The notes below the pieces were generated by a model. That model ran no database searches. It had not been told where the DNA came from and worked only from the letters and a program-made list of their open reading frames with translations. This document shows positions 44,432 to 58,440 of a stretch of DNA of 64,000 nucleotides, piece after piece (the first letter of the stretch is position 1; each line of letters opens with the position of its first letter). Source of the stretch: Streptomyces sp. NBC_00690 (lineage in GTDB: Bacteria > Actinomycetota > Actinomycetes > Streptomycetales > Streptomycetaceae). The DNA lies in contig NZ_CP109009.1 of the NCBI RefSeq assembly GCF_036226685.1, positions 4,588,001 through 4,652,000 on the forward strand, in the 5' to 3' direction. Made by a program: the position numbers and the translations under genes.

Positions 44432-45324
44432 GCGTGAATAGCCCTTTCCAGCCCGGATGACACAAAGATGCGATGAGGGGTGGGGGATTCTGTTCGGCGG
44501 CTCCAGCCAAGCCGAAATGCGCATCGAAGATGAGACTTTACTTGCTCAACACATATGTATACAAGAAGAATTGACCGATAGGGCGATCTTCCTTGCAGTC
44601 ACGCGGTGATGACCCCGAGTGCCCGTTCGGTGCTTGGATTCCCGCAATGACAGCGGGAGGAGAAGAATTTGCTCCGACGCGCCCTCACTATGAGTCATTG
44701 AATCCAGCCTGCATGTCACAATTCGTGTTGGACTAGGTGTCAGTCTTGCGCCCTTCATGAGGGTCGCGCAGCAGCCCGGACAAGGCGAGGACCCACGATG
44801 GTGAAGGGCTCATCCACCGCGCAGAACCAGCGGAAGGCGAGGACCGTCTTCGGCGAACTGCTCGGTTCGGCGCGCCCGGCCACGAAATCGGCCGAGCGAG
44901 GCATCGGCGGGACCGAAGCCGACCAGCCCTCCTCCGTCATCGAGACGGTCCTGATGTCTTGCGGGCAGGCCGAGAGCCGCGACCGCCCTTTCCCCGAGGA
45001 GGACCGGTCGTCCCTCTGTGCGCTTCCCGGATCCACCATCACCAGGGGGCATTGAGGACCTCCCCCGACGTGACGAAATGAGCGCGACGTCAACGTCGTG
45101 GCAGCGCGGTAGCCGATTTCACTGATGGACCTTGACGGTTCGTACAGGGCCTCTCGCCCCGTGAAATCCCTGGTACCAGCGGCAAATCGGAGGAAGAAGC
45201 CAGTCGGGTGGACCCGGCGGGCCGACGACCCCTGCCGAAATGCAGTGACGCACCTCCCGGCAGGCTCGTTAGCGGCGCATATGCGGTTCCGCGCCGACTG
45301 CCGCAAGCCACCTTTGGAGACTCG
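44432..45324. other. 893-base region with no supported gene
   Basis: It begins with an AT-rich stretch (about 44520-44580, including TTGCTCAACACATATGTATA) that probably holds the promoter of the PA14-FN3 gene. Several open frames cross the remainder on both strands, but none has a clear ribosome site or family-like sequence. Possibly remnant DNA beside the chimeric UPF0114/IstB frame. Confidence 0.4.
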
Positions 45325-46701
45325 TTGCTCAGCCCCGCTATGCCCGCGTCGACCAAGCAAGACTTCAAGAGTTACGCGGCTCCCTCACTCGGATACGCCC
45401 TCTTCGCCACCCGCTGGCTCCAAGCCCCGCTCTACTTCGGGCTGGTGGCCGCCCAAGGCGTCTACGTCTACAAGTTCTTCAATGAACTCTGGCACCTGGT
45501 GCTCAACATCATCAGCGGCCAGGCCGACGAAACCCACGTCATGCTCGCCGTGCTGAAGCTCGTCGATGTTGTGATGATCGCAAATCTGTTGATCATGGTC
45601 ATCGTCGGTGGCTATGAGACCTTCGTGTCGCGCATCGGCCTCCAAGGCCACCGCGACCAGCCGGAATGGCTGTCGCACGTCAACTCCAACGTGCTGAAGG
45701 TGAAACTGGCCACCGCCATCGTCGGGATCTCGTCCGTCCACCTGCTTCAGATGTTCGTCGATGTGTCCCACACCTCACAACACTCGCTGTTGTGGGGCAC
45801 CGTGATCCATATGGCGTTCATCCTCTCGGCAGCGATCCTCGCCTATATGTCGGGCCCCATGGAGTCACACGGCCATGCCGGACCTGGTCTGGGAGGTCCA
45901 CCCCACCGTGATGGGGACAGCGGATTCGCCGATGCCAGCGAGCCGTGCTCCATCCTCCAGGAGATGAGCGGACCGGTCCCACCCCCACGGCGCACGATCC
46001 CCGCGCAGGCCAACGCCACCGCTCGCACCGTCAAGAAGATCGAACAGCCGCAGCCTGCCCAGGCCACCGAGTCCACCACCATCGAAACCCGGGAGGCCGC
46101 GGGCGCCGATGCCAGGATCGTTGCCGCCGGCTTCCCCGCGCATAAGTCGTTGGAAGGCTTCGACGCCGACCGTCAGCGCCCCCACGACTGGGAGACCATC
46201 ACCCGTCTCGCCGCCCTGGACTTCGTCGACGCCCATGCCAACGCCGTCTTCCTCGGCCCTCCCGGCACCGGCAAGACCCATCTGGCCATTGCGCTGGGGA
46301 TGCGGGCCTGCCGTACCGGCCACAACGTGCGCTTCGCCACCGCCACCGAGTGGGTGGCCCGCCTCACGGAGGCGCAGAACACCGGCCGCCTCACTGAGGA
46401 GTTGACCCGACTCGACCAGTACGACCTGATCGTTGTGGACGAGATCGGTTATGTACCCTTCACCCCCGAGGCGACGAACCTGCTGTTCCGGTTGGTCTCC
46501 CACCGTTACGAACGCGGCTCGGTCCTGGTCACGGGCGACAAGTCGTTCGGCCGCTGGGCCGAGGTGTTCGGAGATGACCCCGTCACCTTCGCCATGATCG
46601 ACCGACTGGCACACCACGCCGATGTGATCACGCTCAAGGGCGACAGCTACCGCCTCCGCAGCTACCACCCCGACGCCGCCCTCATCAGCCCCGACGCTTG
46701 A
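45325..46701 (+). CDS. Chimeric UPF0114 membrane protein / IstB ATPase
   Basis: One 458-residue frame joins two unrelated families. Residues ~20-190 are a UPF0114 (YqhA/TIGR00645) membrane protein: FATRWLQAPLYFGLVAAQGV, VDVVMIANLLIMVIVGGYET, FVSRI, HVNSNVLKVKLATAIVGISS and a HSLLWGTVIHMAFILSAAIL segment. From about residue 260 it is an IS21-type IstB ATPase: FPAHKSLEGFD, GPPGTGKTHLA (Walker A), IVVDEIGYVPF (Walker B), TGDKSFGRWAEVFGD. The IstB N-terminus is missing, no istA is nearby, and the junction (about 45890-46060) is low-complexity. TTG 45325 has a ribosome site; ATG 45340 is the alternative. Probably a deletion or transposition scar. Confidence 0.78.
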   Translation: MLSPAMPASTKQDFKSYAAPSLGYALFATRWLQAPLYFGLVAAQGVYVYKFFNELWHLVLNIISGQADETHVMLAVLKLVDVVMIANLLIMVIVGGYETFVSRIGLQGHRDQPEWLSHVNSNVLKVKLATAIVGISSVHLLQMFVDVSHTSQHSLLWGTVIHMAFILSAAILAYMSGPMESHGHAGPGLGGPPHRDGDSGFADASEPCSILQEMSGPVPPPRRTIPAQANATARTVKKIEQPQPAQATESTTIETREAAGADARIVAAGFPAHKSLEGFDADRQRPHDWETITRLAALDFVDAHANAVFLGPPGTGKTHLAIALGMRACRTGHNVRFATATEWVARLTEAQNTGRLTEELTRLDQYDLIVVDEIGYVPFTPEATNLLFRLVSHRYERGSVLVTGDKSFGRWAEVFGDDPVTFAMIDRLAHHADVITLKGDSYRLRSYHPDAALISPDA

Positions 46702-46839: not shown

Positions 46840-47040
46840 TTACAGCTTGGCGGCGCGGGCGAGGGAGACCAGGCCGGCGAACGCGTTGGTGGAGATCATC
46901 AGTACGGGTCCGCTGGGGCGCTTGCTGTCCCGGACGGGGACGATGCCGGTAGCGGACACGTGGTCGGGGGCCCATTCCACGCACTGACCACCGTTGTCGC
47001 TGTATGAGGATTTGACCCAGTTGCAGGGTTCGGTCGTCAC
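46840..47040 (-). CDS. DUF397 small protein, copy 2
   Basis: A 66-residue DUF397 protein (NWVKSSYSDNGGQCVEWAPD, then VSATGIVPVRDSKRPSGPVL and NAFAGLVSLARAAKL). Alignment by eye with the copy at 20936 shows the same length, the same S-S-Y-S signature and the same C-terminal pattern. The GTG start overlaps the stop of the XRE gene (GTGA). Confidence 0.9.
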   Translation of the reverse strand: MTTEPCNWVKSSYSDNGGQCVEWAPDHVSATGIVPVRDSKRPSGPVLMISTNAFAGLVSLARAAKL

Positions 47041-47876
47041 GGGGTGCCCTTTCGTAGCTGTTGGATCATGGCCACAGACTCGGTCTGGGGGAGTGCGTGC
47101 TTCTGCAACTGATGGTAGGCCGTCAACGTAGGCACCACGGAAGGCCCGTCACGTTCGAGATGCCCCCGAGCTGCGGACTCTGCGTAATAGACGAGCGAAC
47201 GATCGGCCAGTGTCAACACCGTTATCGGCAAGTTGAACGGGCGACGCTCCCCCATGGCGAACGGGGCGATTTGAAGAGAAGCGTTCGGTTCCTCCGCGAA
47301 CTCCAACAGCCTGTCGTATTGAGCGCCCATCACTGCGGAACCCCCAACGCTCCGACGGATGCAACCTTCGTCCAGCACCACGAAGATCAGAGGTGCGGGG
47401 GTTCGGACAAGTTTCGCTTGCCGCTCCGCGATCAGTTCGGTGCGCTCTCTCGCCTGGTCGTTCGTGATCGCGCCCCGCTCGACATACGCGTTCGCTAGTA
47501 CCACCGCGTACTCGGGAGTCTGAAGCAGGCCAGGGATGACACCTACCTCGTACAAACGGATCTCCACGGCCCTGCCCTCGTACCCGATGAACCCCGAGAA
47601 CCCTTCCAGAAGTGCCCCGTACTTCATGCCTAACCACTCACGTTCGAAAGACTCTTCGGTTCCGGCCAGGCCAAGTACCACGTCAGCGCGGCGACAGAAC
47701 GGCAAAGTTGCAATCTTCAGCCCAGTTTCGACATGGGATACCTGGGTCGGCGAATACTGCATCTCGGCGCCGAACTCTCGCTGTGTCCACCCCCGTTGTT
47801 CGCGCTCGCGGCGGAGTCGGGCCCCCAGGGCTGCTTGTGGACTCGCGTCCGGATTCAGTTCCTTCCGGTTAACCAT
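47037..47876 (-). CDS. WhiJ-like XRE regulator with DUF5753, copy 2
   Basis: A 279-residue regulator, the same length as copy 1. The helix-turn-helix is LRREREQRGWTQREFGAEMQ, then YSPTQVSHVETGLKIATLP. The DUF5753 part has LYEVGVIPGLLQTPEYAVVL, VVLDEGCIRRSVGG and LQIAPFAMGERRPFN. ATG 47876 follows TTGGGGAA. The shared body and opposite orientation show that both copies descend from a module duplication or independent acquisition. It likely controls the divergent small gene through the palindrome at 47951. Confidence 0.9.
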   Translation of the reverse strand: MVNRKELNPDASPQAALGARLRREREQRGWTQREFGAEMQYSPTQVSHVETGLKIATLPFCRRADVVLGLAGTEESFEREWLGMKYGALLEGFSGFIGYEGRAVEIRLYEVGVIPGLLQTPEYAVVLANAYVERGAITNDQARERTELIAERQAKLVRTPAPLIFVVLDEGCIRRSVGGSAVMGAQYDRLLEFAEEPNASLQIAPFAMGERRPFNLPITVLTLADRSLVYYAESAARGHLERDGPSVVPTLTAYHQLQKHALPQTESVAMIQQLRKGTP

Positions 47877-49963: not shown

Positions 49964-52900
49964 TCATGGCCCCAGGTGGATCAGGGCGGCCCGGTCGAGC
50001 AGGTGTTGTGGACGGGTGGAGTCGATCTGGCGGAGGGCGTTGTGCAGGGCATGGGCCGCACGATGGGCGTGGGGGATTCCGTCCGGGCGGATGAGAAAGC
50101 GGTAGAAGTGCACGGCGATCTCGGTGGCCATCTCATCCGTGATCTGACCGAGGCTGGCGATCACATGGCGATAGCCGGCGGCCTGGAAGGCACTGGCTAT
50201 CGACCAGGCGGCGCCGCCCTCCGCCACCCCGACGGACAGATGCGTATCGCAGGCGGACAGATAGGCCAGGGCGCCGTCCAGCACGAGATCGTGCGGCGGG
50301 AGGTCGTGCTGGGTGAGCCTCACCTCGTTGAGGTGGAGTCCCGAAGGCAGGTCGCCACGGTGTGATCCATGTCCCGAGAAGTGGAAGAACTGGTGGTCCG
50401 AGAGGGCTGCCACCACGCGCTCCGTCGTCGCCTCGGCACCGGTCATCAGCGTCGCACCCGGGATGAGTTCATGGATGCGCTCCACTTCCCTGGAGGCGTT
50501 CTCCAGCGAGGTGTCCCCGACGACCAGCAGCATCCGCCGTTCGCCGCCTGTTCTGCTGCCGGCGCTGCTTCTGCTCCGCTCCTGGCGACGGCCGTCGATG
50601 AGGGCCTGGATACCGGGTGTGTAGGAGTGGACGGCAAAGTCCATCGCGGTCCGTGGGCGGCTGGTGTCGTACTGCCCGGCGGCATGGAGCGGCAGGGATG
50701 CGAAGGCGCCGGTGGGGAACCACCACAGACGGGGTGGGTCCTCATCGGGGACGAACAGCCCGTCGGGTTCCTCCGGTGTGCGGGCGGAGCGAGCAGGGCT
50801 CTCTGCCCGTTCGGAGCGGGGGGTGAGCTGAAGTTCGTGGAGGATCTGTCTGACGGGGTTGTGCCACAGCCACTCCAGCACTTCCAGCGCCGCCCGGACT
50901 TTCGCCGGGTCTGCCGGGTCGCTCATAGCCGCGGTGTACCGCTGGGCCTGCTCGGTCAGGCTTCGGCTATCGAGTCGTACCAGTGGGAGGACCGACAGTC
51001 CGCGCCGCCCGGTCAGGATCAGCGCATCACAGCGGCGGTCCGCGGGATTGAGAACGACGATCGGCCCTTCCTCCGCCGCGTCGATCAACTGCTGGACGTC
51101 GAGGGTTGGGAAGAGGCTCTCCAAGCCCGGAGCATGCCGGATGGAGTCGACCAGGCCGTTCAGTCGGTTCGCCAGATCGGGAGAGGACACCGCCCTCGTC
51201 TCCTCGCCGAGACGGAGATCGAGGTGGAGCAGGTTCCAGAGCCATTCCAGCTCCGTCACCAGACTGGGTCCCGCTCGCCTCAGCACCTGGGTCACGAAGT
51301 CGGCACCGCGATTCCACAGCTGCAACAGCGCGCTCTGTTGCTCCAGGTACGCCAGTGCGCGCTTGGGTGCGCCCGCCTCGATCGCGTAGGCGGCTGCCTC
51401 CTGCCCTAGCCGGGCCCACATGGTGATGAGGTCGGCGCGCTCCCTTCCCGGGAGGAGTACGGCGGTCGCCATGGCGTGGGTCGCGTCGTCGTAGCCGCGC
51501 AGGACGGCGTCGGAATCTCTGAGTCGTACGGCCAGTGTGGTTCGCAGCAGATCGGCTCTCAGCCGTAGCAGCGGTGGCGCGCTCGACTCCCTGGACAGAT
51601 GGGCGGCGTCGCGCAGCGCGTCGCTGAGTTCATCCGTCGATGCGCGGGGATCCCGCTGGACCGTGATGGCCCTGAGGAGCACCGCTTGCCATCTGGTCAG
51701 GTCCTGGTCGGTGTGCAACGTCATCATGGAGTCGAGGAAGCGCGAGGCTTGTCGGCCATCCTTGCCGCGTGGGCTGAGGATCTCCCGTTGGAGCAGCGCG
51801 GAGGCCAGCCAGACCGTGTCGGAGCGGCTCCCCTGGCTGTCATGAGTGGACCGGCGCTCGGCTTCTGCGAGGATTGCGACCGCCTCATCGAGTACGGCAG
51901 GGTCGCCCACCAGTCGATGGTGGGCGAGGAGCGATTCCCTGAGTAGTCCGTCCGCCCGGCTCCACCGCGGCGGAGCCGGGTACGTCTCCTCCGCCAGCGC
52001 CACGGCCTCCCGGGCGTTGGCGATGGCCCGCTCGACCGTCGCCAGGTCACCGGTCACCGCGACGTCGTCGAGTTGGCATCGGGTCAGGGCGCTCAGCGCA
52101 GGCAGCAGCGAGGGCCGGTGGCGGCGTTTCACCACGGCCTGGAGTTCCTTGATGGCACGGGTGAGGTCGCGGTGCTCTCCCAGCAGGTGGAAGCGGATGC
52201 GCAGGGCGTTGCCGAGTTCGATTCGGAGCGTCCCACGGCGGGCCCGGGACGCAGGTGTGAGGGAGATCGCTGCTCGCAGGTCGCTCAAGGCCGATTCGAG
52301 GTCGCCGCGGCCCGCGGTCATACGGAGCAGCGCCAGGGACACGGCAGCTCGGGTGGCGAGTCCCTCCGCCTGGACGGACGCCGGCCATCCGGGTGCGGCA
52401 CAGAACTCCGTGATGAGCGCATGGGCCCTGTCGAACTCGTTGATCTCCTGAGTGGCCCCGAAGACCATCAGATGGAACTGGGCCAGGGCCAGTTCGATCA
52501 GCGTCGACGGCGTGCCGATCTGCTGCGCTGCGGCGGATGCCAGAGCTCGGGCCCGATGGAGGTTGAGGGACCGTGGATCTGCCTCGTGTTGGGCGATCAG
52601 CGTGCGCAGGAGTTCGCAGACCGCCTCCGTGTTGCCCTCTTCCTGTACGAGCCCGGCTTCCACTGCCACATTGAGCACTTCCACCGATCTCATGAGGTCG
52701 TCGAAGCGTCGCGAGTGGAAGTACCGTTCGCGCAGGGCCGCTCCGAGGACGATGGGGACGCGTCTGGATGTGGGGCGCGTCTCGTTGAGTTCGCCGGCGA
52801 TCCCAACGGCCTTGTCCAGGGAGTCCCGTACGCCGAAGTGCAGGCCGTCGAGGTAGAACGTCTCCGCGATCAGCACTCTGAGGGTGGACTGCTGGCGTGG

Positions 52901-53947
52901 TGCGTAGTTCGTGTCGAGCGCGTAGCGGGCCAGCCGTGCGGCCTCCTTGAGGAGTTTGTCCTCGTTCGCCTGGTGGAAGCGGGTGATGAGACGGTCGAGT
53001 TCCCTCATCAGGCGCGGTGTCACCACATCGAGCGGTGCACCGGTACGCATCAGCTCGTGCAGCACCTCCCACTCCGATGCCTCGTCCACCTGCCCGATTT
53101 GGCCGGGCGGGTCGAGGCGATAGAGCTCACCCCCTCCCGTACGGAGGTTGACCGCACCCGGCCCCACGGGAACGCGGACCACCGCGCCGGCCTCGATCCG
53201 TACCGGGGGTTGGGCCCGGCTCGTGAGGACCTCCACCATCCGGGGGTGGGTGTCGGGTACCAGGATCGCCACCGCGTCCGGACCCTGGACCTCGCCGATG
53301 AGGAGGTTCCTGCCCTCCCTGCGCAGTCCGAGCCGGACCCGGCCGACGGCCGGGGCGATCGTCGCCACGTCCGCGAGGGTCAGGTCCGGTGCCGGTCCCA
53401 GCGGGAGGGAAGGGGCGTGGGCGCGGGTCGCATTGGCCAGGCTCCAGGCGGTGGCGCTCGTCCGGGCCGCTTCGGGCAGTCGCTGCCAGGCGCCGGCGAA
53501 CCAGCCGGCGACCCCGCTGCGCTGTTCCCGGACGAGGGCGTGCAGAGCCCGGCCGAGGTGCTGTTCGGCCTTGTCGGTGTCACCGGTCAGGCTCGCCCAG
53601 GTGATCTGCTCCTCCAGGAAGAGCGCGGGTGAGAGGTCCTGGTGGTGGTCGGAGAGAAGGGTGAAGACCTCCGCCATCCCCGGCTCGGCTGCCAGCCGCC
53701 GGGTGAGTCGCCCCCGTAGATAGGGCAGGCACTCGGGCAGCAGGGCGATGGCGTCGTGAGTCCGGGCGCCCACCCACTCGCAGAACCACAGATCGGCCTC
53801 GGCCCCGACATCGAGGTGCGGATGGAGACCCAGCCGTACGGCACGGATCAGTTCGGGCTCGATGCGGGTGGCGATGCTGAGCGTGGTCGCCAGCTCCAGA
53901 GCCCCGGGCGGGGGCGCGGGCGGTAGGCCGTCGGGGAACTCGATCAC
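49964..53947 (-). CDS. CHAT-domain protease with TPR-like helices (1327 aa)
   Basis: A large soluble protein. The C-terminal ~330 residues form a caspase-like CHAT domain with catalytic His1193 (FFHFSGHGSH) and Cys1233 (YLSACDTHLS). The long N-terminal and central region (residues ~100-900) is helical and TPR-like (ALSDLRAAISLTPASRARRG; LLGEHRDLTRAIKELQAVVK). The GTG at 53947 overlaps the vWA gene stop (GTGA). Last gene of a five-gene operon. In related conflict systems the CHAT protease is the effector triggered by the NTPase partner. No signal peptide; catalytic residues intact. Confidence 0.87.
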   Translation of the reverse strand: MIEFPDGLPPAPPPGALELATTLSIATRIEPELIRAVRLGLHPHLDVGAEADLWFCEWVGARTHDAIALLPECLPYLRGRLTRRLAAEPGMAEVFTLLSDHHQDLSPALFLEEQITWASLTGDTDKAEQHLGRALHALVREQRSGVAGWFAGAWQRLPEAARTSATAWSLANATRAHAPSLPLGPAPDLTLADVATIAPAVGRVRLGLRREGRNLLIGEVQGPDAVAILVPDTHPRMVEVLTSRAQPPVRIEAGAVVRVPVGPGAVNLRTGGGELYRLDPPGQIGQVDEASEWEVLHELMRTGAPLDVVTPRLMRELDRLITRFHQANEDKLLKEAARLARYALDTNYAPRQQSTLRVLIAETFYLDGLHFGVRDSLDKAVGIAGELNETRPTSRRVPIVLGAALRERYFHSRRFDDLMRSVEVLNVAVEAGLVQEEGNTEAVCELLRTLIAQHEADPRSLNLHRARALASAAAQQIGTPSTLIELALAQFHLMVFGATQEINEFDRAHALITEFCAAPGWPASVQAEGLATRAAVSLALLRMTAGRGDLESALSDLRAAISLTPASRARRGTLRIELGNALRIRFHLLGEHRDLTRAIKELQAVVKRRHRPSLLPALSALTRCQLDDVAVTGDLATVERAIANAREAVALAEETYPAPPRWSRADGLLRESLLAHHRLVGDPAVLDEAVAILAEAERRSTHDSQGSRSDTVWLASALLQREILSPRGKDGRQASRFLDSMMTLHTDQDLTRWQAVLLRAITVQRDPRASTDELSDALRDAAHLSRESSAPPLLRLRADLLRTTLAVRLRDSDAVLRGYDDATHAMATAVLLPGRERADLITMWARLGQEAAAYAIEAGAPKRALAYLEQQSALLQLWNRGADFVTQVLRRAGPSLVTELEWLWNLLHLDLRLGEETRAVSSPDLANRLNGLVDSIRHAPGLESLFPTLDVQQLIDAAEEGPIVVLNPADRRCDALILTGRRGLSVLPLVRLDSRSLTEQAQRYTAAMSDPADPAKVRAALEVLEWLWHNPVRQILHELQLTPRSERAESPARSARTPEEPDGLFVPDEDPPRLWWFPTGAFASLPLHAAGQYDTSRPRTAMDFAVHSYTPGIQALIDGRRQERSRSSAGSRTGGERRMLLVVGDTSLENASREVERIHELIPGATLMTGAEATTERVVAALSDHQFFHFSGHGSHRGDLPSGLHLNEVRLTQHDLPPHDLVLDGALAYLSACDTHLSVGVAEGGAAWSIASAFQAAGYRHVIASLGQITDEMATEIAVHFYRFLIRPDGIPHAHRAAHALHNALRQIDSTRPQHLLDRAALIHLGP

Positions 53948-54912
53948 GGCATCCTCGCGCTGATCTGGCCGGTGGTGGTGGTCCGGTCCCAACTCACGAG
54001 CGGCAGCAGCGCATTCATCCAGGCCGGCCAGCGCGCGGGCGGATAGGGGACGAGGGCGACGGGCTGGCAGCCGGCACGGGTGACGAGCGCGATGAACTCC
54101 TGCCACTCCTCGGGGGTGCTCCGCCCATGGGCGTAGGGCTGTGCGCCGAGACCGAGGTCGGAGAGCAGCAGGATGCGCTGGCCGCCCGTCGGCGGGGTGT
54201 AGTCGGTGCGGGTCCAGCGGGCGCCGGAGCCCGTGCCGCGTTGCGGGGCGTCGGAGAAGTACCCGACGTCGACGAGTTCGCGGCCGACGACCGAGCGGAT
54301 CTGGCGGACCAGATGGTCCTGGTCGCGTCGGAAGGGCTGCATGGTGCTGCCGCGGTCGACCAGCACCTGGACGCCGTAGCGCAGGGTGCGCACCTGCCTG
54401 CGGGGCAGTTGGACGACGGGGCGGCAGCGGGCGAGCGTCTCGATCAGTGCGTCGATGTCGATCGGCCCGTCGTCCACCTGCTGGGCCAGGGCCGCCCGGA
54501 TGAGGCTGCTGGTCCAGCGGGGGACCAGCAGGGGGATGTGCGGGCGTACGGTGCGTTCGGTCGTGGGGAGCGCGAGGCGTTCGACCGGATCGGGTGCGGG
54601 GCTCGTGGTCTCGATGCGGCGGGGCTGGAGCAGCGGGAGTTCCGCCAGGGCCCTGCTCGGCTCGGGCTCCTCAACGGTGTCGGGTTCCGCAGGCTCGTCT
54701 TCGCGGTGTCGTGGCGCCCGTTCGTTGTGGTCGTCGGACGGGTGAGCGGGCTGGAGCGGGGGAGCGGGGAGGGGTTCGTCGTCGAGGGGTGTGACGGCAG
54801 TGGTGGTGAAACCCAACACCCGCAGCACCTGGACCTGTTCCTCCTCGGTCTGCGCCGTTTCGAGCGCTCGGACCGCGTCCCCGATCCAGATCTGCGGGCG
54901 CACTCTGCTCAC
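53944..54912 (-). CDS. vWA-like protein (SAV_2336 type)
   Basis: A 322-residue soluble protein. The GTG at 54912 overlaps the MoxR stop (GTGA). An acidic, proline-rich linker (residues ~45-125) precedes a von Willebrand A-like domain: VQVLVDRGSTMQPFRRD has a degenerate metal site (D-x-G-S-T), and RILLLSDLGLG supplies the second strand. The C-terminus ends TGQISARMP. vWA proteins next to MoxR ATPases act together as a chaperone-like unit. It resembles Streptomyces proteins often annotated SAV_2336 N-terminal. Confidence 0.72.
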   Translation of the reverse strand: MSRVRPQIWIGDAVRALETAQTEEEQVQVLRVLGFTTTAVTPLDDEPLPAPPLQPAHPSDDHNERAPRHREDEPAEPDTVEEPEPSRALAELPLLQPRRIETTSPAPDPVERLALPTTERTVRPHIPLLVPRWTSSLIRAALAQQVDDGPIDIDALIETLARCRPVVQLPRRQVRTLRYGVQVLVDRGSTMQPFRRDQDHLVRQIRSVVGRELVDVGYFSDAPQRGTGSGARWTRTDYTPPTGGQRILLLSDLGLGAQPYAHGRSTPEEWQEFIALVTRAGCQPVALVPYPPARWPAWMNALLPLVSWDRTTTTGQISARMP

Positions 54913-55835
54913 CCCTGCTTCTGGGGTGATTTGGTCAGGGTGAGGGTGCGGATCAGTTCCCACTTCGGGCCACCGGGCCGGATGTCGAGGGCCCGGCAGG
55001 CACGCAATGCATCCAGGTACTCGGCAGTGCTGGGCAGCCGATCGCGCCGGGCGTCACGGCCCTCCCGTGCGCTCATCAACTCGATGGCCAGCGCCTCGGC
55101 CAGTCGCCGGGTCGCTGTGTCCCACTCCTGGCCCTCGTGGCGCAGATGCATTTCGGCGATCCGCAGCAGGCTCGCGCCGGTCGGCGCAGGCAGGGTGAAG
55201 GTGACGCACCGCCGGAGGAACGCCTGAGGCAGTTCCCGTTCGTCGTTGGTGGTGATCACGACCAGATGTGCGCCGACGGACGGCTCCCGACAGACGGTGG
55301 TTTCGGTCTCGGCAACGGTGAACTCCTGCGAACCGAGCGGTACGAGGAGGCTGTTGGGCACGTCCGGGTCGGCCTTGTCGATCTCGTCGATGAGGACGAC
55401 GGCGTCCTTGGCCTGGCGCTCGTGGGCGAAACGATCCATGGGGTCGTGGGCCGCCGGCGCCCTGAACAGCCCACCGCGGGTGCGGGCGGACTCGGGCGCC
55501 AGCGACCACCACAGCACACCGGGCCGTACGTACTCGGCGTCCTGGAGGTGGGAGCGGTGCGCCTGGGCGTCCGCGAGCCGTCGCACGCTGTCGAAGGTCC
55601 ACAGCAGATCGGTGGCCCGGGTCCGGGAGGTCACCACGTGCTCGTAGTACCGCATGCCCTCGGTGCGGGCGTAGAAGGGGGCGAGGGACGACTTGCCCGA
55701 TCCGGGCTCACCGCTCAGCAGCAGCGGTCGATCGGTGGCCAGCGCGACCTTGATGGCCAGATCGAGTTCGGCAGGCATGTCGTAGAGCTGACCGTCCCGG
55801 GGATCGGGACCGTGGGGAGTGGGCGGGGCGGTCAC
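54909..55835 (-). CDS. MoxR-family AAA+ ATPase
   Basis: A 308-residue ATPase. Walker A GEPGSGKS is at residues 42-49, Walker B VVLIDEIDKAD at about 146-156, with a sensor 1-like VVITTNDERELP and arginine finger region FLRRCVTFTLP. The GTG at 55835 is preferred because CCGAGGAG lies 5 bases upstream; ATG 55892, directly after the TIR stop, would add 19 residues. MoxR proteins usually partner vWA proteins to remodel or activate other proteins. The stop overlaps the vWA start. Confidence 0.85.
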   Translation of the reverse strand: MTAPPTPHGPDPRDGQLYDMPAELDLAIKVALATDRPLLLSGEPGSGKSSLAPFYARTEGMRYYEHVVTSRTRATDLLWTFDSVRRLADAQAHRSHLQDAEYVRPGVLWWSLAPESARTRGGLFRAPAAHDPMDRFAHERQAKDAVVLIDEIDKADPDVPNSLLVPLGSQEFTVAETETTVCREPSVGAHLVVITTNDERELPQAFLRRCVTFTLPAPTGASLLRIAEMHLRHEGQEWDTATRRLAEALAIELMSAREGRDARRDRLPSTAEYLDALRACRALDIRPGGPKWELIRTLTLTKSPQKQG

Positions 55836-55892
55836 GAGTGCTCCTCGGATGTGTCGGTGGGCCGGCTCGGGGGGATCGGTGGCGGCGTCCAT

Positions 55893-57152
55893 CTAGTACC
55901 TGCCGTGGAGCCGGTCCGGCAGCTTCCACAGCCGTCGGGTGAGCTGCTTCGCTTCGTTTTCGTCCTGGCCTTCGAGCAGGGGCTTCAGCACGATCGGATT
56001 CTTGAAGGCGGCCTGGACGTGCGCATCGGGCAGAGCGGTGCCCGTGGCCACCACCACGACCAGCCAGGAGAACTTTCCGTGCAGCAGTTTGACCGCCTCG
56101 GCGAGGTCGGTCGTGGGCGGGTCGGGCTCCCGGATGATGAGGTAGCGGACGTCCTCGCGCAGATTGGACGGGAGGATGCGGTCCTCCTCGTCGTCCGCGT
56201 CGAAGAACTGTTTCCACACGGCGTCCTCCCAGTCGCGGAACCTGGCCGCGACCACGTCCTCCCCCGCGGGCATGGGGCCGCCCACCGACACCATCTCGTA
56301 GCCGCGGGTGGCATTGCAGGTCGCCCGGCGTATGTAGTGCTTGGCGGTGTCCGGCTGGCGGGCGTTGAGGAATACGGTCATGTCCCGCGGCTGGGTCGCC
56401 GATGCCGGCAGCACCCCTCGTGCGGCCTCTTCGCTGACCCAGGTGGTCTCCAGGGAGGCGATCAGCCGTCGGAGCGTGTCGGTCGACAGCGAAGGCGCCA
56501 CTTCGTGGACCGCGTGCGACATGCGGTCCACGGGTGCGACCAGGAACTGGTGCGCCAGGAAGAGACAGCCCCCGTTGAGCTGGGGCAGATGCTTCTCCTT
56601 CAGCTTCAGCGCGGTCGCGGCCTTCACCAGACGGCCCGTGTGCTGGGCCTCGCCGAGGTACTCCGAGAGCGTGTTGAGCCAGGCTGCCATCGGGTCGTTC
56701 TCAGACGCCTGCGCGGGCAGTTCGGCGAACTGCTTGAGGACCAGTTCGGCGATGCTCCCGGCGTCCTGCGGTGCGCCGCGTGCGGTGCGCGCGAACTGGA
56801 CCGGTCGCAACTCCTCCATACCGGCGTCCTTGACCGAGCCGGTGGACAGATCTCCCAGGAGCACGGGCACCACGGTCAGCCGGGCGCCCAGAGCCCTGCG
56901 CCACATCAGGATGTTGACCTCGCGGCGCACCCAGAAGGACTTCAGCGCCTTCTCGTTGATGAGGACCACGGCGGCGTGACAGCGGGCGAGCCAGTCGACG
57001 ATCTCCGGACGCCACTCCTGGCCCGGCGGGATGTCCTCCTGGTCCACGAGGGGTTGGAAGCCCTTGGCGGCGAGGCCGTCCTTGATGGTCTCCAACACCG
57101 TCATCGCGAACTCGTCGCCGCGCGCACTATGGCTGATGAAGACGTCCCTCAC
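55893..57152 (-). CDS. TIR-domain protein (419 aa)
   Basis: The N-terminal ~130 residues form a TIR domain: RDVFISHSARGDEFAMTVLE, then QPLVDQEDIPPGQEW, VVLINEKALKSFWVRREV with the expected catalytic Glu78, and VVPVLLGDL. This suggests NADase activity or a signalling role. The remaining ~280 residues are helical, then alpha/beta, with no recognised domain; they may be an iSTAND-like or sensor module. GTG start at 57152. It follows the SLATT-like gene by 43 bases and precedes MoxR closely. Soluble, no signal peptide. Confidence 0.82.
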   Translation of the reverse strand: MRDVFISHSARGDEFAMTVLETIKDGLAAKGFQPLVDQEDIPPGQEWRPEIVDWLARCHAAVVLINEKALKSFWVRREVNILMWRRALGARLTVVPVLLGDLSTGSVKDAGMEELRPVQFARTARGAPQDAGSIAELVLKQFAELPAQASENDPMAAWLNTLSEYLGEAQHTGRLVKAATALKLKEKHLPQLNGGCLFLAHQFLVAPVDRMSHAVHEVAPSLSTDTLRRLIASLETTWVSEEAARGVLPASATQPRDMTVFLNARQPDTAKHYIRRATCNATRGYEMVSVGGPMPAGEDVVAARFRDWEDAVWKQFFDADDEEDRILPSNLREDVRYLIIREPDPPTTDLAEAVKLLHGKFSWLVVVVATGTALPDAHVQAAFKNPIVLKPLLEGQDENEAKQLTRRLWKLPDRLHGRY

Positions 57153-57195
57153 GTCGTCGATTGTGATCCATTGTCAGCCGATTCGGCAGGGAGTC

Positions 57196-58440
57196 TCACA
57201 AACCGGCGTCGAACTCCGGTTTCACGACGATGATGCGCCACCGCCGCAGTTCCTCCGCAAGGGTCAGCTCCACCCGGACCGCCAGCGCCCTGAACAGGAC
57301 CACCGCATCAGGGGTGGCGGGCTTGGACAGCAGGGTGCGCAGGGTGTTCTCGTGCCCCAGCAGTTCCTGACGGGTCTCCCGGTAGGAGGCGGCCAGCCGC
57401 TGGGCGGCGAACAGGTTCTGGATCGCCAACACGGCGTTGCACAGGGGCGGGAGGCCCGCGGCCAGCAGGGCGACGATCGCCGCCGTCGTCGACGGGGTGT
57501 GACCGTCCGGGCCGGCCAGCAGCAGGGCGGCGTAGCACAGGGCGACGGCGATGCCGGCGAGCACCATCGCCTTGGCCACCCGGCCGAGGGACCTCTCGGT
57601 CCGCTCGCACTTCTCGACGGACAACTCCATGAACAGGGCCTGACGCCTTATGCGGTAGTCCAGATAGGTCCGCATCCGGTCGACGACGTCGGGCGCGGGA
57701 CCCTGCTGGGGGGAATTGCGGCGCCACACCTCGTCCTGCCAGTGGTGCTCGTCGCCGAGCGTCGTCCGATCGGCGAAACGGTTCAGTTCGTCGAGTTGGG
57801 CCTGTTCGGCGTTGGAGAGGACGTTCAGCCGGGCGTCGCGCACCCGCTCCGCGTCTTCGGAGGACAGCCCGAGATAGGGCCCGACCCCGGCGAGGAGCAG
57901 AAACATCTCCCGGCGGAACACCTCGCCCCGCATCCGACTGACCACCCAGGGCCTGGAAGGCTCCTGCCCCGTCCAGATGGTCCAGATCATGGCGACCAAC
58001 AGCAGGCACTCGGCCAGGATGAAACCGATCGCCAAGGACTCGCCGTTGTTGAGGAACACGGTCTGCACGGTCAGGAACAGCACGGCGAGCGCCGGCAGCA
58101 CCGCAAGGCGGATGCCCACGGCCCGGAAGTCGCCCTGGTGATCCACCGGATCATTTCCGGACGGCCGTCGCAGCACCCCCGCATAGTCGATCGGCGGACG
58201 GACGTCCGCTCCAGGCGTCCAGGCGTCCCGCTGCGCCCGGCTGGCTCTCCTGCGCCGTCGATGTGCCCATTCGCGTCCGATGCGATAGCCGCTGTCGATC
58301 AGTACGAGCAGCCAGAACGCCCCGGCGACCGGGGTGAGGACCAAGAAGGCGGACAACCCGGTGATCGAGGCCGCAACGACCAGCCCTGCGAAAACGACCG
58401 TACTCGCGACAACGACGACAGCCCGTGCGGCAGCCAGCAT
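57196..58440 (-). CDS. SLATT/DUF4231-like membrane protein
   Basis: A 414-residue membrane protein, first gene of the operon. Predicted helices: two near residues 5-50, two at ~110-160, and a C-terminal pair (MVLAGIAVALCYAALLLAG; TAAIVALLAAGLPPLCNAVL) embedded in coiled segments (FMELSVEKCERTERSLGRVA; AASYRETRQELLGHENTLRT). This C-terminal layout matches SLATT-type two-TM proteins, proposed pore-forming effectors of conflict systems. Start ATG 58440. Assignment to SLATT is by pattern; DUF4231 is the alternative name. Confidence 0.68.
   Translation of the reverse strand: MLAAARAVVVVASTVVFAGLVVAASITGLSAFLVLTPVAGAFWLLVLIDSGYRIGREWAHRRRRRASRAQRDAWTPGADVRPPIDYAGVLRRPSGNDPVDHQGDFRAVGIRLAVLPALAVLFLTVQTVFLNNGESLAIGFILAECLLLVAMIWTIWTGQEPSRPWVVSRMRGEVFRREMFLLLAGVGPYLGLSSEDAERVRDARLNVLSNAEQAQLDELNRFADRTTLGDEHHWQDEVWRRNSPQQGPAPDVVDRMRTYLDYRIRRQALFMELSVEKCERTERSLGRVAKAMVLAGIAVALCYAALLLAGPDGHTPSTTAAIVALLAAGLPPLCNAVLAIQNLFAAQRLAASYRETRQELLGHENTLRTLLSKPATPDAVVLFRALAVRVELTLAEELRRWRIIVVKPEFDAGL

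Follow-up and report, generated by a model that had tools for sequence, protein, structure and literature searches.

Ternary conflict systems of the TERNS3 kind have been predicted in actinobacteria, among other groups (eLife 2021, PMC8195603). The word TERNS3 turned up in three papers, two of which use it in an unrelated sense. According to the section of PMC8195603 that describes them, the systems comprise a 5' gene that encodes a novel alpha+beta domain, usually as a fusion with a TIR domain, a MoxR gene, a separate vWA gene and an adjacent gene in which vWA-L is fused to exchangeable effectors. The present study concerns a five-gene operon in a 64,000-nucleotide stretch of the 9.17-Mb genome of Streptomyces sp. 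NBC_00690 (contig NZ_CP109009.1, positions 4,588,001 to 4,652,000), which is called the window in the following. The operon fits every architectural point of the published description, i.e., a MoxR protein with intact motifs, a vWA gene beside it, a constant module with exchangeable C-termini and a TIR-alpha+beta fusion, and its assignment to this class of systems is well supported. It probably belongs among the TERNS3-type MoxR-vWA ternary conflict systems, and would then combine a gated TIR NADase with a SLATT membrane effector and a CHAT accessory module. The original prediction had regarded the combination as possibly novel; this does not hold for the core, whose layout is published. The TERNS3 section of PMC8195603 mentions no CHAT or SLATT among the effectors, and the word "SLATT" does not occur in its main text.

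The operon consists of five adjoining minus-strand genes (49964-58440) without internal stops, and the intergenic gaps in the 5' to 3' order SLATT/TIR/MoxR/vWA/CHAT amount to 43, 0, -4 and -4 bp. The start of the CHAT gene was set at the GTG at 53947 (1,327 amino acids), from which the residue numbers His1193 and Cys1233 follow; the mechanical open reading frame begins further upstream. The gene set, its order and the domain layout are as follows.

57196..58440, minus strand: SLATT-type membrane protein, 414 amino acids, six transmembrane segments predicted from hydropathy, SLATT_1-like part at residues 279-402
55893..57152, minus strand: TIR-TERNS3-like protein, 419 amino acids
56748..57152, minus strand: TIR domain, residues 1-135 (TIR_2, 1.8e-15)
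56919..56921, minus strand: codon of Glu78, the presumed catalytic Glu of the TIR domain, aligned to the final E in the W-T-E-Y-E of 7uxr
55893..56747, minus strand: TERNS3-like domain, residues 136-419 of the TIR protein, helices followed by an alpha/beta part
54909..55892, minus strand: MoxR-type AAA+ ATPase, 327 amino acids (AAA_5, 4.7e-11)
54909..54912, minus strand: 4-bp GTGA overlap of MoxR and vWA genes, found only in the window among the seven loci with the full gene set
53944..54912, minus strand: vWA protein, 322 amino acids, with N-terminal helices, a low-confidence linker and a vWA-like fold with a degenerate MIDAS
53944..53947, minus strand: 4-bp GTGA overlap of vWA and CHAT genes, seen in six of the seven loci with the full set
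49964..53947, minus strand: CHAT protein, 1,327 amino acids
53048..53947, minus strand: vWA-L-like constant module, residues 1-300 of the CHAT protein, present in 38 of 39 loci before differing C-terminal modules
50768..53047, minus strand: middle region, residues 301-1060 of the CHAT protein, possibly with TPR-like repeats
49964..50767, minus strand: CHAT (caspase-superfamily) domain, within residues 1061-1327 (CHAT, 2.6e-24)
50369..50371, minus strand: codon of His1193 of the CHAT dyad, kept in five of seven loci
50249..50251, minus strand: codon of Cys1233 of the CHAT dyad, kept in five of seven loci

The original prediction had described this row of uninterrupted genes with GTGA overlaps at the vWA/MoxR and CHAT/vWA junctions, and had pointed to Glu78, His1193 and Cys1233; all five frames are open in the claimed order, both overlaps measure -4 bp, and the three residues are present. 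Its domain labels stand for TIR, MoxR and CHAT; the SLATT_1 match lies below the cut-off, and the vWA protein has no Pfam match. It was also right in seeing a conserved conflict-type unit around a MoxR-vWA core, as homologous operons keep the five genes in the same order.

For the comparison, 39 loci with a common core were used, i.e., all 21 of one neighbourhood set and others chosen among homology matches. A search with the MoxR protein of the window, whose relatives are annotated as "MoxR family ATPase", found strong relatives within the genus. Of 29 genus matches from a further search, all but G219, G221, G222, G234, G260 and G324 were examined, with G370 counted as L058, with which its coordinates agree. 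MoxR matches occurred in sixteen plasmid records, the two from Streptomyces being examined, and in two phage records, there at 34% identity. The 39 loci exclude those without a TIR-TERNS3 gene, of which 14 were examined and 10 are included in the MoxR tree; the latter carry the tree label NACHT, and the NACHT match itself was found in L044-L046 only. These related MoxR-vWA loci (L044-L046, L125, L127, L133-L137 and L146-L149) mostly show a vWA-L match; in L044-L046, a NACHT protein replaces the TIR-TERNS3 gene 5' of MoxR, and several of the 14 have a separate TIR-like match nearby.

The full five-gene set occurs in the same order in seven loci, namely, the window, L055, L056, L057, L058, L059 and L118, whose MoxR proteins form one clade (100/99). 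A divergent five-gene copy (L151) is carried by a plasmid of Streptomyces that typing placed among the mobilizable ones; its TIR, MoxR, vWA and CHAT proteins are 35%, 57%, 36% and 31% identical to those of the window, it encodes a different SLATT protein of 295 amino acids, and its MoxR protein is placed elsewhere in the tree than the clade of the seven loci. The plasmid set and the set of this clade could still share a common origin. Among the eight five-gene loci, only L055 from S. albipurpureus has flanking genes in common with the window, so that the set occupies differing genomic places. A search for an empty site by the flanking two-component genes yielded a best relative of about 70% identity and was not used further. 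The distribution in the genus is patchy, SLATT and vWA genes being found together in 5 of 392 sampled genomes. That unrelated genes have come together by chance, or that the operon encodes a housekeeping chaperone, is hardly credible in view of this patchiness and of a gene order conserved in seven strains, of which only L055 has the flanks of the window; it is the retention of all five genes in order in homologous operons elsewhere that speaks against chance. Mean pairwise identities across the seven loci decrease from MoxR (0.73) via TIR (0.68), the vWA core (0.66), SLATT (0.65), vWA-L (0.63) and the TERNS3-like domain (0.55) to CHAT (0.47) and the middle region (0.36).

The order of TIR-TERNS3-like, MoxR and vWA genes is constant in all 39 loci, with a partial TIR gene in L145. 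The TIR domains of 38 of 38 loci share Asp37, Trp74, Arg77 and Glu78, the last being the presumed catalytic Glu of the W-x-x-x-E motif that is present in the window protein (L145 is unreadable at these positions), and seven Walker, sensor and Arg residues of MoxR are invariant in all 39. The TERNS3-like domain was found behind the TIR domain across the 39 loci. The AlphaFold model of the TIR-TERNS3-like protein has a mean pLDDT of 88; no fold is claimed for its TERNS3-like part because the VIA list obtained with the whole-protein model was filled by the TIR domain. The Pfam scan gave no STAND match in the whole TIR protein, an inactive STAND being the third component of iSTAND and iSTAND2 ternary systems, and it found a single AAA gene among the five and no double FtsH AAA+ protein as in FtsH ternary systems. 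The structure model and profile comparisons support the 322-amino-acid protein as a putative vWA protein, for which neither a Pfam match nor, with the vWA alignment, a match in the PDB sequence search was obtained. In the structure comparison, NorD of the NorQ-NorD pair ranked first; the protein terminates with the vWA-like fold and lacks the C-terminal propeller of beta-propeller ternary systems. Foldseek also matched decarboxylases to the TIR model and aminotransferases to the vWA model, but with low TM-scores, and these similarities were attributed to common alpha/beta arrangements.

The exchanged part is the C-terminal portion of the gene that follows the core. A vWA-L-like module with a variable C-terminus immediately follows vWA in 36 of the 39 loci; the exceptions are L145, in which the gene was not found, and L130 and L131, in which the vWA-L fusion gene is encoded by the other strand at a distance of about 2.4 and 3.2 kb, respectively, from TIR. 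A CHAT domain with the same middle region follows the module in eight loci, including L151, and a remote CHAT domain serves as the C-terminal module of L124 (nine of 39 in total). FxsT-type TIR/NB-ARC/TPR modules were found in 14 loci, an FxsB-type radical SAM gene adjoining in 13; one of the 14 (L065) ends with its contig within vWA-L and owes its label to the radical SAM gene and to its relatives. NB-ARC/TPR or NTPase/TPR modules are present in eight loci (L069 shows NTPase and TPR matches but none to NB-ARC), and a weakly caspase-like protein with TPRs in four, a label based on one weak match below the cut-off in L042 and on similarity to L042. WD40 (L130), a Schlafen-type helicase (L131) and a C-terminus with no identified domain (L075) occur in single loci. 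In the MoxR tree, the loci of the FxsT type group into one clade, as do those of the NB-ARC/NTPase type and those of the caspase-like type. A further scan of L071, L126, L128 and L150, and of the cores of L150 and L151, confirmed the labels.

Within the CHAT protein, the middle region is the fastest-evolving part, and it has no Pfam match in the window protein; the plasmid relative is annotated as a "CHAT domain-containing tetratricopeptide repeat protein." A PDB sequence search with the CHAT protein gave no match, and the NCBIfam model of the Csx29 TPR-CHAT protein (Craspase) scored 10.1 bits against a cut-off of 300. Decay of the CHAT site is directly observed: the His-Cys dyad is whole in four of the seven full-set loci (window, L055, L056 and L057) and damaged in three of the six clade relatives, L058 having lost His, L059 Cys and L118 both. 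Judged by eye, the CHAT protein of L151 retains both residues and that of L124 seems to lack them. Other enzyme-like modules show a similar picture by eye, with no Glu at W+4 in the TIR domain within FxsT in 13 of 13 aligned rows, and in the caspase-like part no Cys at the expected place in four of four and His-Gly in one of four.

The SLATT gene was found 5' of TIR in 17 of the 39 loci, i.e., in eight with CHAT, in eight of the FxsT type and in one with the Schlafen module (L131). This count was obtained by searching every frame with the window, plasmid and other SLATT proteins as queries, would miss SLATT proteins dissimilar to these, and includes a partial match in L068 (34% over 128 amino acids). 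Since it accompanies differing C-terminal modules, SLATT goes with the TIR side rather than with the CHAT protein or a protease. With the window SLATT protein alone as the query, relatives were detected in 6 of 392 genomes of the genus, five of them with the TIR-MoxR-vWA core. The sixth (L144 in G279; 36% identity, 27.0 bits against a Pfam cut-off of 26.3) lies immediately upstream of a gene for a TIR-NACHT-HEAT protein, and in the 19.5 kb covered the queries for MoxR and vWA found nothing; L144 is possibly a two-gene TIR/SLATT system.

From this comparison we infer the assembly of a complex, its trigger, the direction of signalling, the NADase and pore activities and a role in phage defence. 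The core complex would comprise the TIR-TERNS3-like protein, the MoxR AAA+ ATPase, the vWA co-chaperone and the vWA-L-like module with its possibly TPR-like region and CHAT, and would be kept off until the vWA/vWA-L side binds an invader-derived trigger. ATP-driven remodelling by MoxR would then activate the TIR domain, which might cleave NAD+ and thereby either deplete it or produce an ADP-ribose-type signal. The responding membrane effector, which kills or arrests the cell, would be the SLATT protein, whose gene immediately precedes TIR. The CHAT protein of the window may still be a protease and provide a second output; in the family, this enzyme activity can apparently be lost, which would leave a binding, regulatory or decoy module.

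Several observations weigh against this reading. The TERNS3 assignment is one by layout, with residues 136-419 of the TIR protein as the candidate TERNS3 domain. The homology of the vWA-L-like module to vWA-L is statistically weak, as hhalign yielded values of 0.11 and 6.4e-4, both at the expected place, the latter against the segment that follows vWA in proteins of the VMAP type, with a profile set that includes duplicates of some loci. The best PADLOC matches of the operon are weak. The SLATT_1 match of the window (NCBIfam, 3.7e-6, 26.9 bits) lies below the curated cut-off of 41, as do those of the relatives in L055 and L058. The clear tandem DUF4231/SLATT_1 proteins at the same place in L151, L040 and L131 (2.1e-17 to 4.6e-22) are of another, shorter kind, that of L151 being distantly similar to the window's. 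Finally, the query searches found no SLATT gene in 22 of the 39 loci, and the core is therefore able to exist without it.

The role of the downstream protein is where the alternatives diverge. Three staged effectors, as the original prediction had proposed, are poorly compatible with the loci compared, because CHAT is seen in nine of the 39, its dyad is broken in three of the seven full-set loci, and the C-terminal modules that accompany SLATT vary; CHAT may thus be non-catalytic. Conservation across homologues, on which that prediction had been staked, divides in the same way: the five genes stand together in the seven loci and the divergent plasmid copy, and the TIR Glu persists throughout, but CHAT is confined to a minority of the core loci and its dyad is not constant. 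A protease-pore axis, in which CHAT acts as an effector switch that cleaves SLATT or another partner and thereby opens a pore, by analogy with bacterial gasdermins and caspase-like proteases, is quite unlikely. All eight loci with this type of CHAT protein have SLATT, the dyad is intact in five of them (that of L151 by eye), and the remote CHAT of L124 seems, by eye, to have lost the dyad, its locus having no SLATT; the axis is weakened by the nine loci with SLATT and no CHAT and by L058, L059 and L118, which retain SLATT despite a broken dyad. Activation of SLATT by CHAT had been considered as the main model as long as SLATT, with the window query alone, seemed exclusive to CHAT loci, and was demoted because the added plasmid query found it in eight FxsT-type loci and L131. 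That the TIR domain makes a cyclic ADP-ribose-type messenger that directly activates the CHAT protease is still more improbable, although a TIR and a caspase-superfamily domain share the operon and PMC12847820 provides a precedent in type IV Thoeris: most relatives have another module in place of CHAT or a broken CHAT, yet all readable ones keep the TIR Glu, and the NCBIfam Thoeris models remain far under their cut-offs.

It is unlikely, if less so, that the vWA-L/CHAT protein is a sensor or decoy and TIR the sole killer, as in the sensor-first model for VMAP systems (PMC10907252, in the part drawn on here). Among the C-terminal modules, repeat- and STAND-like ones prevail, the enzyme-like ones are often broken (CHAT, FxsT TIR and the weakly labelled caspase-like part), the TIR domain of the 5' gene is invariant, and about 70% of the caspases in effector position are inactive according to the portion of Kaur et al. 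considered; yet the CHAT dyad of the window is whole, and SLATT is left unexplained. A related reading accommodates SLATT and is possible, if doubtful: MoxR-vWA might license an ADP-ribose-type signal of TIR, with the SLATT pore as the receptor and the often-dead C-terminal modules as decoys or sensors that set the trigger. If true, this would represent a chaperone-gated branch of second-messenger immunity, and the window a case in which CHAT still has its dyad. In the parts of the two papers considered, the class has been viewed in terms of effector release (PMC7159879) and sensor first (PMC10907252), which predict opposite outcomes for a CHAT mutant, so the operon could discriminate between them. 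Across the loci compared, the active site of TIR, the ATPase, vWA and the TERNS3-like domain are fixed, the C-terminal module is exchanged and SLATT is optional.

In the neighbourhood of the operon, a single open reading frame (window 45208-46701, plus strand) combines UPF0114 with an IstB-like ATPase; a relative of 476 amino acids (77% over 475) is encoded just downstream of the operon in S. albipurpureus L055. Between this reading frame and the operon lies an HTH_31/DUF5753 regulator gene (window 47037-47876, minus strand), whose best NCBIfam match is of the Sco1979 type and under the cut-off.

Among other known systems, the VMAP ternary systems (eLife 2020, PMC7159879, in the part drawn on here) resemble the operon in their MoxR-vWA pair and in exchangeable, often inactive C-terminal domains. 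They differ in that vWA is fused to the effector, while the operon has separate genes, and in that the VMAP-type MoxR proteins compared are only about one-third identical to that of the window. Membership was rejected, since VMAP-C gave no match up to E 1 in the window proteins and the control was positive: with the same library, VMAP-C was found in L053, which lies in the same genome, and in L047, and L049 gave VMAP-M2 only. L053 (G000:C1:5843000-5862000) is itself a VMAP-type ternary system with a trypsin + VMAP-C protein, a MoxR match and a protein of 1,184 amino acids. In the GAP1-N1 GTPase conflict systems, SLATT likewise accompanies nucleotide-related domains such as TIR (same source and part), but around a GTPase core instead of MoxR-vWA.

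Type IV Thoeris shares the joint occurrence of TIR and a caspase-superfamily protease (PMC12847820). The best score of the operon against the NCBIfam equivalog of the Thoeris TIR is 26.1 bits, compared with a cut-off of 220. To our knowledge, type IV Thoeris has no MoxR-vWA core. The FxSxx-COOH system, with its FxsB radical SAM protein and FxsT, differs from the operon in that the latter has no FxsT match and no radical SAM gene among its five genes. It is nevertheless represented by the 14 FxsT-type loci (L039, L040, L062, L063, L065-L068, L070, L072, L119, L120, L126 and L129), 13 of which have the radical SAM gene beside the same core and 13 an FxsT match behind the vWA-L-like module. The comparison thus ties TERNS3-type cores to FxSxx-COOH peptide systems as well as to SLATT pores.

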